Below are positions 4,873 through 8,889 of a DNA stretch of 10,545 nucleotides, piece by piece. Under the pieces are notes generated by a model. The model saw only the letters and a list, made by a program, of their open reading frames with translations, searched no databases and had not been told where the DNA came from. The first letter of the stretch is position 1, and the number at the start of each line of letters is the position of its first letter. The position numbers were made by a program, and so were the translations under genes. This stretch comes from Clostridia bacterium (GTDB taxonomy: Bacteria; Bacillota_A; Clostridia; Oscillospirales; CAG-272). The stretch spans positions 1 through 10,545 of the forward strand of contig JAFXHW010000077.1 of NCBI GenBank assembly GCA_017533545.1, in the 5' to 3' direction.

Positions 4873-5676
4873 ATGGCAAATGACAAAAAATACGTAATCG
4901 TAAGCGATCTCGACGGTACTTTTTTTGCTTCGAACGGCGAACCTACGCAAAATAATCTTGCCGCAGTCGAGCGCTTCAAGAAGGCAGGACACTGTTTTAC
5001 GATAGCGACGGGCCGATTTAAAAATAAATGGTGCGAATGTGCGAACGCACCCTGCATACTCGCTAATGGAACTTTTATGCTCGACGTGACAAACGGTAAG
5101 ATAATCAACGAGCGGACCTTTGAATCAAAGAGCGCATATGAGCTTTTAAAGGAAATACGCGATGTTTTTGGCGATATAAGAGTACGATATACCGACCGAA
5201 ATGATGTGCACTATCTGTTTGCTTCAGGTGATGAAGATGAATTCGGAGAACAATGGTATAAGATCGTCTTTGAAAGCGTCAGAGAAAGCGAAAATGATAC
5301 GCCGTATATGAGAGCCGACCTTCTCGCGATGAGCGATTATCTGCGTAAAAACTATCCCGACCGATTCAGATACAATTTCTCCGCACCCTTTCTTTTTGAA
5401 CTGCTGCAGCATGGAGCTTCAAAAGGGGTGTGTATAGGTGATCTTAAAGACTATTTCAAAGACCGCGGTGAGGACGTGACTGTCGTAGCCGTCGGAGATT
5501 ATGAAAATGACATGGAAATGCTTGCTGCCGCCGATATAGCCGCCTGCCCGTCAAATGCTTTGCCGTCTGTTCTCGAATACGTGGAAAGCCGCCTGCAAAA
5601 GGGAAGCGGAATCATCGTTTCAGATAACGACAGCGGCGCTGTAAGCGACCTTGTTGACAAACTTTTAAATAGCTGA
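4873..5676 (+). CDS. Cof-type HAD-IIB family phosphatase
   Basis: This is a 267-residue haloacid dehalogenase-superfamily hydrolase, likely a soluble phosphatase acting on small phosphorylated metabolites; its substrate cannot be predicted. Motif I is VIVSDLDGTFF with nucleophile Asp12 and acid/base Asp14. Motif II is TIATGR, motif III includes Lys184 in GASKG, and motif IV is GDYENDMEM with Asp209 and Asp213 for magnesium. The region between motifs II and III fits the C2B cap of Cof/YidA-like enzymes. The chosen ATG lies one base after the pseudouridine synthase stop and gives a classical N-terminus. No strong Shine-Dalgarno is seen, so translation probably depends on ribosomes finishing the upstream gene. 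A longer frame reaching 4804 would overlap the upstream gene by 68 nt and add residues unlike the family. It is the last gene before a strong terminator. Confidence 0.92.
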   Translation: MANDKKYVIVSDLDGTFFASNGEPTQNNLAAVERFKKAGHCFTIATGRFKNKWCECANAPCILANGTFMLDVTNGKIINERTFESKSAYELLKEIRDVFGDIRVRYTDRNDVHYLFASGDEDEFGEQWYKIVFESVRESENDTPYMRADLLAMSDYLRKNYPDRFRYNFSAPFLFELLQHGASKGVCIGDLKDYFKDRGEDVTVVAVGDYENDMEMLAAADIAACPSNALPSVLEYVESRLQKGSGIIVSDNDSGAVSDLVDKLLNS

Positions 5677-5702
5677 AAATACGCCCGAGGGCGTATTTTT
5701 TT
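5676..5702 (+). terminator. Intrinsic terminator closing the ileS-lspA-HAD cluster
   Basis: AAAATACGCC and GGCGTATTTT form a 10-bp perfect stem around the tetraloop CGAG. A run of seven T (5696-5702), partly shared with the 3' arm, follows. It overlaps the last base of the HAD stop codon. This is a textbook Rho-independent terminator. Confidence 0.93.
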
Positions 5703-5782: not shown

Positions 5783-5811
5783 TTGAAAAAAATCGTATTT
5801 TTTGATATTAT
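5783..5811 (+). promoter_or_regulatory. Sigma-A-type promoter for the GHL10-amidase gene
   Basis: TTGAAA (5783-5788) and TATTAT (5806-5811) are separated by 17 bp. Each differs from the consensus by one base. The spacer carries an A7 run and a T6 run, in a very AT-rich region typical of clostridial promoters. Transcription would begin near 5818, giving a leader of about 48 nt with the ribosome binding site AAAGGAAGG at 5849-5857. No operator is recognised. Confidence 0.7.
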
Positions 5812-5865
5812 TATATAAATGAAACTTGTTGCTAAAAGAATAGTCGGGAAAGGAAGGTTTTTTTG

Positions 5866-8800
5866 ATGAGAAGAGCATCACGCGAACCGGTTTATATAAA
5901 AATTGCGGCACTTTTGCTTGCCGTTGTTATTGTCGCGTCGACCGTCTTCGGTGTTTATTTGCTCATAGGCGTGAATCGTGCCAACAACATCAATGCAATA
6001 TCCCGGCCTTTAACTTCAGTTGAGGAGCAAAACCTGACAAGCCGTCCCATACGTGATCCGGACAGCGAGGTACGCGGCGTATGGATAGCCACAGTTTCGA
6101 ATATCGATTTTCCGTCAAAGCCCGGCCTTTCGGCAGAGGAGCTTAAAAAAGAGCTTCGTGATATTGTTGATACAGTAAAAAGCGCGAATTTGACATCGAT
6201 ATATTTTCAGGTTCGCCCAACCTGCGATGCTCTGTACGATTCGGAATATTTTCCCGCATCAGCTTATCTGACAGGCAGTCAGGATAAAGATTTTGCAGGC
6301 GGATTTGACGTGTTTGAATACCTTATAGATATTGCCCATGCAGAAGACATTGATGTACACGCATGGGTAAATCCCCTTCGCGTGACGAGCGGTACCGAGA
6401 CAAATCCTGCACACGATCTAAACTCCCTCGGGCTTAATAATCCCGCACGGCTTCACCCTGAATGGACTGTAAAATATGCCGACGGCAAGATATATCTTAA
6501 CGCAGGCATTGCCGATGTCCGTAAGCTCGTCGCTGACGGCTGCGCCGAGATCGTTGAGAATTACAACGTCGACGGCATCATTTTCGATGATTATTTTTAT
6601 CCTTATCCTGTAACCGGAGCATCATTTGACGATGACGCTCAGTATAAATCGTACATCGGCGATTTGTCACGTGACGATTGGCGACGCGAAAATATCAATC
6701 AGATGGTCAAGGGCTGTTATGATGCCATAAAGGCTATACGACCCGATTGTAAATTCGGAATATCTCCATTCGGTATCTGGCAAAACGATGACGGACAAAA
6801 CGGCGGCAGTGCCACAAACGGCTTTGAAAGCTATAAAAGCCTTTACTGCGATGCAAAAGCGTGGATCGAGGGCGGATATATCGACTATATTGCTCCCCAG
6901 TTGTATTGGCAATTCTCGCAGTCAAGCGCGAAATTTGATGTGCTCTGCCGTTGGTGGAATGCCCTTTGCGACGGTACGGGGGTTGATCTTTTGATTGCCC
7001 ACGGAGCGTACCGATCGGCTGAATGGGGCTCCGATTGTGAGATAAAAAATCAGGTTGAGTTTGCCCGCAGTGAAATGACCTATCGCGGCAGCATCATGTA
7101 TGGATACGCCGCGATAAAGCGAAATGATCAGGATCTTTTGGGACAGCTTCGCGAAGTATATTCGCATAATATCGTTTATACCGATCCTCATTCCAATGCA
7201 AGCCTTCTGCAGATCTCATCTCCTGCAGACAAAAGCACCCTGCAGTATGATAATATCTATCTTATAGGCTCATCAGACCCTGCATATCCTGTTTATCTTA
7301 ACAATAAAAAGATCAGCCGCACCAAATCGGGTTATTTCTCCCTGTACGTTCCCTTGAATGAGGGAGAGAATGTATTTACTTTTGTCCAGAACGGTCTTGG
7401 TATTAATTACACGGTTACTAACGGAACCGTTAAGAGTGAGACTGTATGGAAGACAATGGACGAATATTCGGTAGTGCCTATTTTACCCGCAAATAACTAT
7501 AATATCAAGGGCGGCGAGCGCATTGCTGTGTCGGCATACGCCCCGAGCGGATCCAAGGTTACAGCTGTTCTCGGCAATATTACAGTCAACCTGACTCAGT
7601 CTACCTATCCTAAAGGAAACAGTAAACTCCTTCAGGCAAAATATGAGGGAAGCATAACTCTGCCCAAAGCGGAGGCAGGCAGTCAGCTGCAGCTCGGAAA
7701 TATCGTATACAAAGCGAAGCGCGGATTTGAGAGCGCTGAAACTATTGGCGCATCTGTCACTGTCAATAACCGCGATATCATCTGCGCCATCGAGGTTATA
7801 AGAAATGATTCCGAGCTCAAGGTGTCGCCTACAAGCTGGTATTACGACGATTATACTCCCGCCGCTATCGGAATGCGCGCCAATGCCGTTCGCCTCGCAG
7901 ATGGCTTTTACAAGCTCGAGATGGGCGGATATATCGCTGAGAGTGATGTGTGCGTGATCGATGAAAGCGTGTCGGACGAATATGCGATAAGATCGCTTTC
8001 GATTGACGTAAGCAACGGCAAGACCCGCCTTATGATCGAGAGCGACGGCAAGTGCGCCGTCAACGGATATATGAATGACGACGGACTTTTCTCGCTTGCC
8101 GTGTATAATTCGTTGTGCAATGTGAGCGGCGTAAAGACAGAGAAAAATCCCATCTTTGAATCGGCCGAGATTGAGAAAAACGAAGAAAAGAATTGGGTGA
8201 AAATTTTATTAAAGCCGTACAGTATTGACAATTTCTACGGTTTTGAGTATTATTATACCGACGGATATACGGTGGTCGAATTCCGTAATCCGCAGACATT
8301 GGCCGATGGCGAGCTCCCTCTTTTGGGTAAGACCATTGTGGTAGATGCGGGTCATGGCGGAAGCGAAACGGGTACAGGTACACCTAAACCGAATTATTAT
8401 GAGAAGGCATTGAACTTGTCTATAAGCCAAGCGCTTTGCGATAAGTTGAAAGCGCTCGGCGCAAATGTGCTAATGATACGTACCGAGGATGTCACCGTCC
8501 CCATCGCCGACCGTCTCAATTACCTTATTGAAGTTGAGCCCGATCTTTGCGTGTCGATCCACCATAATTCGATGACTTTTGATACCGATATCACCACAAT
8601 ACGCGGACTTTTGGGACTCTATTTTGCCGATTCGGGCAGACTGCTTGCCAAGTGCATATCGTCATCTGCCGCCGATGAACTCAATCTGTATGAGCGAAGT
8701 GTGGCAAAGCAGCGCTTGGCAATGGTGAGAAACCCGAAATTCCCATCTATGCTCCTTGAAGTTGGTTTTGTAACATGCGTTGAGGAGTTTGAAATGCTGT

Positions 8801-8889
8801 CGTCGGCAATGGGTATTGACCGCGCGGCTGAGGGCGTTGCAAAGGGAATAATCGAGTATTATAAGGCACAGTCGGAATTTATTAGATAA
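5866..8889 (+). CDS. Membrane-anchored GHL10 glycosyl hydrolase-like and N-acetylmuramoyl-L-alanine amidase fusion
   Basis: This 1007-residue surface protein appears to carry two peptidoglycan-cleaving domains. A short basic N-terminus and a hydrophobic segment at about 10-36 form an uncleaved signal anchor. Residues 68-430 match GHL10 (DUF187) TIM-barrel proteins: RGVWIATVSNIDFP, QVRPTCDALYDS, HAWVNPLR, VDGIIFDDYFYP (235-246, acidic Asp236/241/242), SPFGIW (300-305), APQLYW and IMYGYAAI. E. coli DigH of this family cleaves denuded glycan strands. Residues about 450-515 look like an Ig-type beta domain (SSPADKSTLQYDN to LNEGENVFTF). A second beta-rich region follows, then an SH3-like stretch near 650-697 and an AMIN-like stretch near 705-812; these linker calls are tentative. 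Residues 822-1000 are Amidase_3 with zinc ligands His830 (DAGHGG), Glu846 and His899 (SIHHN), and catalytic Glu965 (LLEVGF), so it should be active. ATG 5866 is chosen because AAAGGAAGG lies 8 nt upstream; a TTG one codon earlier is the alternative. The gene is probably monocistronic. Confidence 0.93.
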   Translation: MRRASREPVYIKIAALLLAVVIVASTVFGVYLLIGVNRANNINAISRPLTSVEEQNLTSRPIRDPDSEVRGVWIATVSNIDFPSKPGLSAEELKKELRDIVDTVKSANLTSIYFQVRPTCDALYDSEYFPASAYLTGSQDKDFAGGFDVFEYLIDIAHAEDIDVHAWVNPLRVTSGTETNPAHDLNSLGLNNPARLHPEWTVKYADGKIYLNAGIADVRKLVADGCAEIVENYNVDGIIFDDYFYPYPVTGASFDDDAQYKSYIGDLSRDDWRRENINQMVKGCYDAIKAIRPDCKFGISPFGIWQNDDGQNGGSATNGFESYKSLYCDAKAWIEGGYIDYIAPQLYWQFSQSSAKFDVLCRWWNALCDGTGVDLLIAHGAYRSAEWGSDCEIKNQVEFARSEMTYRGSIMYGYAAIKRNDQDLLGQLREVYSHNIVYTDPHSNASLLQISSPADKSTLQYDNIYLIGSSDPAYPVYLNNKKISRTKSGYFSLYVPLNEGENVFTFVQNGLGINYTVTNGTVKSETVWKTMDEYSVVPILPANNYNIKGGERIAVSAYAPSGSKVTAVLGNITVNLTQSTYPKGNSKLLQAKYEGSITLPKAEAGSQLQLGNIVYKAKRGFESAETIGASVTVNNRDIICAIEVIRNDSELKVSPTSWYYDDYTPAAIGMRANAVRLADGFYKLEMGGYIAESDVCVIDESVSDEYAIRSLSIDVSNGKTRLMIESDGKCAVNGYMNDDGLFSLAVYNSLCNVSGVKTEKNPIFESAEIEKNEEKNWVKILLKPYSIDNFYGFEYYYTDGYTVVEFRNPQTLADGELPLLGKTIVVDAGHGGSETGTGTPKPNYYEKALNLSISQALCDKLKALGANVLMIRTEDVTVPIADRLNYLIEVEPDLCVSIHHNSMTFDTDITTIRGLLGLYFADSGRLLAKCISSSAADELNLYERSVAKQRLAMVRNPKFPSMLLEVGFVTCVEEFEMLSSAMGIDRAAEGVAKGIIEYYKAQSEFIR

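Follow-up and report, generated by a model that had tools for sequence, protein, structure and literature searches.

The window analyzed here is a stretch of 10,545 nucleotides from a Clostridia bacterium (contig JAFXHW010000077.1 of assembly GCA_017533545.1), and our subject is a gene on its forward strand whose product combines a GHL10 barrel with an Amidase_3 domain. The open reading frame (ORF) at 5866-8889 is open throughout and encodes 1007 amino acids (aa) from an ATG at 5866 to the stop; a TTG at 5863, ahead of this ATG, is the start of the mechanically called ORF. An initial annotation, made without database searches, had placed two peptidoglycan hydrolase domains on one anchored chain, and Pfam matches, alignment to PDB structures, intact active-site residues and a hydrophobic N-terminal helix all agree with it. 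The domain search puts GHL10 at residues 68-382 and Amidase_3 at residues 824-996, both above the Pfam cut-offs, and the four amidase residues that had been expected are present, as is a GHL10 acidic pair.

The GHL10 domain, a predicted glycan-cleaving TIM barrel, occupies residues 65-445 (6058-7200, + strand). Its Pfam match (PF02638, residues 68-382) reaches 222 bits against a cut-off of 27.9, far beyond chance, and in a PDB comparison residues 65-445 align with Cwp19 of Clostridioides difficile at E 3.1e-86. Foldseek confirmed a Cwp19-type barrel (PDB 5OQ2/5OQ3) with E-values of 3.9e-31 to 3.6e-30, 39-40% identity and TM-scores by target of 0.88-0.89. Cwp19 is a cell-surface protein too, but it has no amidase and is held by CWB2 repeats. 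Thirteen pocket residues are proposed for Cwp19 in one report (PMC5765458), and these were mapped by eye onto the window protein through the PDB-comparison alignment. Ten of the 13 are identical (W73, Q115, W167, R172, D241, D242, Y243, S300, Q345 and Y347), including R172 (6379-6381, +; Cwp19 R132) and the acidic pair D241 D242 (6586-6591, +; Cwp19 D195 D196); at the remaining positions A378 replaces G328, Y412 replaces F367 and G413 replaces S368. Across 131 relatives Q115, W167, R172, D241, D242, Y243 and Y347 are invariant and Q345 varies once, and the variable positions are W73 (tryptophan in just 87) and S300 (serine in just 36). According to the same report (PMC5765458), GHL10 has a glycine where related barrels carry their second catalytic glutamate. 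Since this position is A378 here, a small residue as in Cwp19, the chemistry of the barrel cannot be read from its sequence.

The Amidase_3 domain (PF01520) spans residues 824-996 (8335-8853, +) and scores 115.9 bits against a cut-off of 27, again far beyond chance. Residues 823-1001 align with Amidase_3 enzymes in the PDB comparison, the best being 4rn7 at E 2e-21. The zinc ligands H830 (8353-8355), E846 (8401-8403) and H899 (8560-8562) and the catalytic glutamate E965 (8758-8760), all on the + strand, are in place, and all four are unchanged in 130 of the 131 relatives. H899 and E965 are separated by 66 residues, within a range of 55-74 across 202 aligned rows, and by this spacing the window amidase has no autoinhibitory regulatory insertion of the Escherichia coli AmiA/B type; its matches to AmiA and AmiC are each split into two stretches. 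That insertion corresponds to residues 151-194 of AmiA, with an equivalent in AmiB (PMC10268282). As the insertion is missing, EnvC-type activation would not be expected.

Residues 9-34 form a long hydrophobic helix in the structure model (5890-5967, +; hydropathy peak 2.75 at residues 16-34) without a lipobox, and this is likely a signal anchor. A simple count over the window protein and 120 listed homologues finds a hydrophobic N-terminus in 102, a lipobox-like motif in 17 and neither feature in 2. C-terminal to the barrel, the models give a first Ig-like domain at about residues 448-519 (7207-7422, +), which resembles Glucodextran_B with a Pfam score of 24.4 bits against a cut-off of 27, and a second Ig-like beta-sandwich at about residues 532-635 (7459-7770, +), with structural matches over model residues 92-195. 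A probable SH3-like beta domain follows at about residues 640-700 (7783-7965, +), suggested by model strands and by the relative L071, in which SH3_3 (26.7 bits, cut-off 27) lies immediately N-terminal to AMIN. The AMIN domain itself (residues 702-809; 7969-8292, +) has the fold seen in AmiC by structure comparison, but no Pfam match to AMIN (PF11741) was obtained in the window protein up to E 1; the stand-alone amidase L072 matches that family at 67.5 bits. Thus of the two middle domains for which a check had been proposed, AMIN is identified by fold and not by Pfam, and SH3 is only probable. Foldseek searches with the middle part alone returned mostly eukaryotic Ig proteins, without functional meaning. 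The distance between the two enzymes, first put at about 390 residues, is 441 by Pfam borders or 377 by PDB borders. E. coli AmiC and AmiB likewise carry an AMIN fold directly N-terminal to Amidase_3, together with the zinc-site residues, but lack GHL10. Stand-alone Ig-SH3-AMIN-Amidase_3 proteins such as L071, where SH3_3 and AMIN fall just under their cut-offs, have the same order of middle domains and amidase and differ in being without GHL10.

How widespread the architecture is had been left as a question, and a survey of architectures shows that the GHL10-Amidase_3 pairing is widespread in this branch of the Clostridia and not rare. The homologue search scored 7996 candidates and gave 1134 homologues at E <= 1e-10, of which the best 120 were inspected; all 120 contain both Pfam domains, and the first-ranked shares 99% identity with the window protein. 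Fused ORFs, half-dead ones included, were found in at least 57 of 147 genomes sampled from the order of genome G001: 48 that keep both domains with their sites, seven without the GHL10 site, one without the amidase site and one with an E-to-Q change. For genome G002 the corresponding samples gave at least 11 of 148 genomes in the class, at least 4 of 398 in the phylum and at least 15 of 78 in the family. There is overlap between the samples, and every count is a minimum, since only some candidates were scored per genome (2 in one survey, 5 in two and up to 10 in another); the profile used for them includes the amidase and as such favors fused proteins. The count from the survey with up to 10 candidates per genome includes G574, whose GHL10 is interrupted by a contig end; G713 and G681, which are broken at contig ends, are not among the fused. 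A scan of genome contigs with the single protein gave only two loci. The pairing has already been annotated piecemeal, as two of the homologues (P0016 and P0081) carry the source name 'uncharacterized lipoprotein YddW (UPF0748 family)/N-acetylmuramoyl-L-alanine amidase'.

Some fused proteins carry further domains. The one at L163:104-2707 has a dockerin domain, which suggests attachment to a cellulosome-like scaffold, and a second GHL10 ORF adjoins it. A long form of 1427 aa at L124:1501-5781 has Big_2 Ig-like repeats N-terminal to GHL10, and L130 and L132-L135 are of similar length.

Taken together, these features argue, with some confidence, for a peptidoglycan hydrolase that is anchored in the membrane, has both active sites functional and would make peptide and glycan cuts in the same patch of wall. 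The N-terminal helix would tether the protein outside the membrane and the Ig, SH3-like and AMIN domains would hold it on the wall. The C-terminal zinc amidase would remove stem peptides from N-acetylmuramic acid (MurNAc), and the GHL10 barrel could cut the glycan backbone in that patch before or after peptide removal. The pairing most likely brings two complementary cuts to one place rather than providing strict processivity. A processive enzyme had been the first suggestion; no feature in its favor was found, and the half-dead members described below argue against an obligate pair.

A stricter version would have the amidase necessarily act first and the barrel act only on denuded glycan, like E. 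coli DigH (YddW), so that one protein would hold the whole amidase-then-DigH pathway. This is possible but doubtful. Its model is the E. coli septum, where amidases are reported to generate denuded glycan and DigH, described as a denuded-glycan-specific hydrolase, degrades it (PMC12288456); it also gains from the joining of GHL10 to amidases from two unrelated families. However, Cwp19, the closest solved GHL10 protein, is reported to be a lytic transglycosylase that accepts peptide-bearing peptidoglycan and releases peptide-bearing anhydromuropeptides, additionally yielding reducing ends at unsubstituted MurNAc (PMC6016235). Membership in GHL10 therefore does not imply denuded-only action of the DigH type. 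DigH has a GHL10 domain too, 34% identical over 365 residues by BLASTP, but is 439 aa long and has no aligned amidase part. In the same comparison the window barrel is 39% identical to each of L032 and L033, which are GHL10 proteins of the Cwp19-like type; L032 carries CWB2 repeats like Cwp19, and L033 is its sister in the GHL10 tree. DigH, L032 and L033 fall in one 18-row group (98/97) with the window clade outside, and DigH joins L036/L037 (100/99), outside the 17-row set of the window (100/99), in a tree that is midpoint-rooted and has DigH on one of its long branches. The label 'DigH-like' thus fits only in a loose sense. The obligatory order is also at odds with seven relatives that keep the amidase without the GHL10 site and two that keep GHL10 without a recognizable amidase.

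These half-dead relatives are new here and are the most unusual feature of the family. In an alignment of 202 proteins (the window protein, 120 homologues and 81 ORFs from other loci), the window protein, all 120 homologues and 71 of the 81 locus ORFs have the two sites intact; none of the 81 lacks both. Seven ORFs (L136-L142) have lost the GHL10 site and retain the amidase residues; L141 has no recognizable GHL10 domain and is counted by its place in the alignment. Three (L002, L092 and L151) have a changed amidase site and an intact GHL10. In L151 the change is a single E-to-Q substitution, found in one genome only, and could be an error. In L002 (7875-10799) and L092 (997-4299) the C-terminal 160 residues stand in the place of the amidase without its zinc and catalytic residues, and Pfam finds no Amidase_3; that they are an amidase remnant is suggested by their place, by the 202-protein alignment and, for L002, by a very faint profile match (2.3 bits). 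Among the seven genomes whose fused protein lacks the GHL10 site, G612 and G649 have a separate GHL10 gene above the cut-off with its site intact, G613 has a further GHL10 fragment at a contig end, and no second GHL10 was seen in the other four.

The dead domains that were tested are under purifying selection. The dead barrels of L136:767-3844, L137:1636-4788, L138:1628-4705 and L139:1200-4277 gave ratios of nonsynonymous to synonymous substitution rates (dN/dS) of 0.07-0.21 over 355 gap-free codons in each of the five pairs compared, out of six, and the amidase remnants of L002 and L092, the sole pair, gave 0.32 over 160 codons without gaps. Within the L136 group, four of five comparisons put the dN/dS of the live amidase below that of the dead barrel, the exception being L136 versus L138. 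The test covered L136-L139 and L002/L092, and some dS values exceeded 1, near saturation. Low dN/dS suggests that the inactive domain retains a function, of which binding would be the simplest. One could thus suppose that a domain of the window protein is itself a non-catalytic binding module, but with every checked catalytic residue of both its sites intact this is very improbable. For the family as a whole we offer, tentatively, the idea of a clostridial single-chain wall-cutting group in which one enzyme has more than once turned pseudoenzyme, the dead domain being kept as a strand-reading module that guides its partner. A dead GHL10 might then offer glycan to its live amidase partner, an inactive amidase might sense stem peptides for the live GHL10, and the intact form might be a self-contained strip-and-cut unit free of the E. 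coli-type control by amidase activators.

Loss of one site in 10 of the 81 locus ORFs also fits two hydrolases that act independently and share a chain only for export and wall targeting, with neither using the product of the other. In six of 398 sampled genomes (G340, G364, G411, G475, G496 and G533) a GHL10 protein and an Ig...Amidase_3 protein are encoded on separate contigs, which agrees with such independence; the latter proteins are relatives of the C-terminal half, and the fused protein has the look of these two put together. Another two genomes (G317 and G438) have an amidase-type protein and no GHL10 match at that threshold, with two candidates scored per genome. Partners were then tallied in 63 GHL10 ORFs without Amidase_3, which matched 12 Pfam families including GHL10 itself. 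Wall-type partners are the most frequent (Cu_amine_oxidN1 in 14, SLH in 13 and CW_binding_2 in 2), as shared targeting would predict, followed by Ig/SH3-type partners (Glucodextran_B in 3; Big_2, SH3_3 and Big-like in 1 each). Glycosidase-like matches (GHL6 in 2, DUF4015 in 1 and Melibiase in 1) most likely lie on the barrel itself. Four of the 63 (L045, L055, L148 and L165) reach the end of their locus, so that partners may be missed, and L148 may be a cut fused gene. Amidase_2 occurs in two of the 63, and no other peptidoglycan hydrolase family was found among them; amidases are therefore the only peptide-side hydrolase partners found, which, with both sites retained in all 120 listed homologues and in 71 of the 81 locus ORFs, leaves the independent arrangement a less likely account. 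One Amidase_2 case, L164:1235-3760, is a GHL10-SLH-Amidase_2 protein whose amidase family is unrelated to Amidase_3. L165, which is 50% identical to it, has the same kind of segment, and the two are thus one lineage and may reflect one event. No nearby amidase-like ORF of at least 200 aa was seen for the close GHL10-only relatives L167-L172.

The GHL10 tree (75 rows) was built from 15 of the 120 listed homologues and from loci up to L064, dropping duplicate loci and GHL10 matches under 250 residues; loci found later are not in it. Along its well-supported branches the fused label must change five times or more. The pairing has thus arisen or disappeared repeatedly, with gain and loss indistinguishable. 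In the amidase tree (38 rows) a single clade of fused proteins was not rejected (p-AU 0.29). Coupling of an amidase to a glycan cutter is supported indirectly by this recurrence, by the split-gene genomes and by the second, unrelated amidase fused to GHL10.

Several observations weigh against two cooperating active sites. One site is lost or changed in 10 of the 81 locus ORFs, and where GHL10 occurs without Amidase_3, its partners are mostly limited to wall-binding domains or not recognized at all. Whether the barrel is a lytic transglycosylase or a hydrolase is not apparent from its residues. No paper on GHL10-Amidase_3 proteins or their biochemistry was recognized in a literature search whose coverage left out most subscription journals. 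Gene neighborhoods were compared across 18 loci (16 flanks of up to 20 kb, several cut short by contig ends, plus L001 and L002), and no division or sporulation operon was seen around the gene; the septal role proposed at first is compatible with the AMIN fold but finds no conserved division neighborhood there.

The GHL10-Amidase_3 protein is a variant of the bifunctional amidase-glycosidase autolysins. In sporulation, SpoIIP and SpoIID likewise couple an amidase step to a step on denuded glycan, but are two proteins of other families. Atl-type autolysins differ from the window protein in domain order and targeting, and their glycosidase is from another family; no Atl-type glucosaminidase is among the four Pfam families found in the window protein up to E 1. 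They share with it the principle of an amidase and a glycosidase (glucosaminidase) on one chain (PMC6262408). Most inferences that peptide stripping and glycan cutting are coupled draw on separate enzymes, and a natural fusion that occurs intact and half-dead in one bacterial group would make the dependence of the two cuts measurable on one molecule. It could also place GHL10 members, from the lytic transglycosylase Cwp19 to the denuded-glycan hydrolase DigH, on one substrate scale.

Upstream of the gene lie ileS, lspA, an rluD-like gene and a haloacid dehalogenase (HAD) phosphatase gene, and downstream a mecA-like gene and a uracil-DNA glycosylase (UDG) gene. Among the 18 loci UDG recurs in three and MecA in two, one or the other being present in three loci; weak matches to the rluD-like and ileS-like products, in one locus each (28% and 27% identity), are probably paralogues. 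One other protein family is present in 4 of the 18 loci at a variable distance from the gene. Directly 5' of ileS, positions 2-409 contain the last part of a highly acidic protein with DEDEFEDDEDGFEDD repeats and no Pfam match. In many Firmicutes it is divIVA that sits 5' of ileS. Just ahead of the fused gene, AAGGAAGG at 5850-5857 (+) is likely its ribosome-binding site. A promoter-like TTGAAA-17-TATTAT at 5783-5811 (+) has TG preceding the second hexamer and 10 of 12 matches; such sites number 18 in the scanned stretch against 7.0 in shuffles and are weak evidence alone. A terminator-like hairpin with a T run lies at 5675-5700 (+), 3' of the HAD gene, one of nine such sites against 3.3 in shuffles. 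Because the hairpin would end the HAD gene and the promoter-like site falls in the gap, the GHL10/Amidase_3 gene is probably its own transcription unit with a separate transcript.
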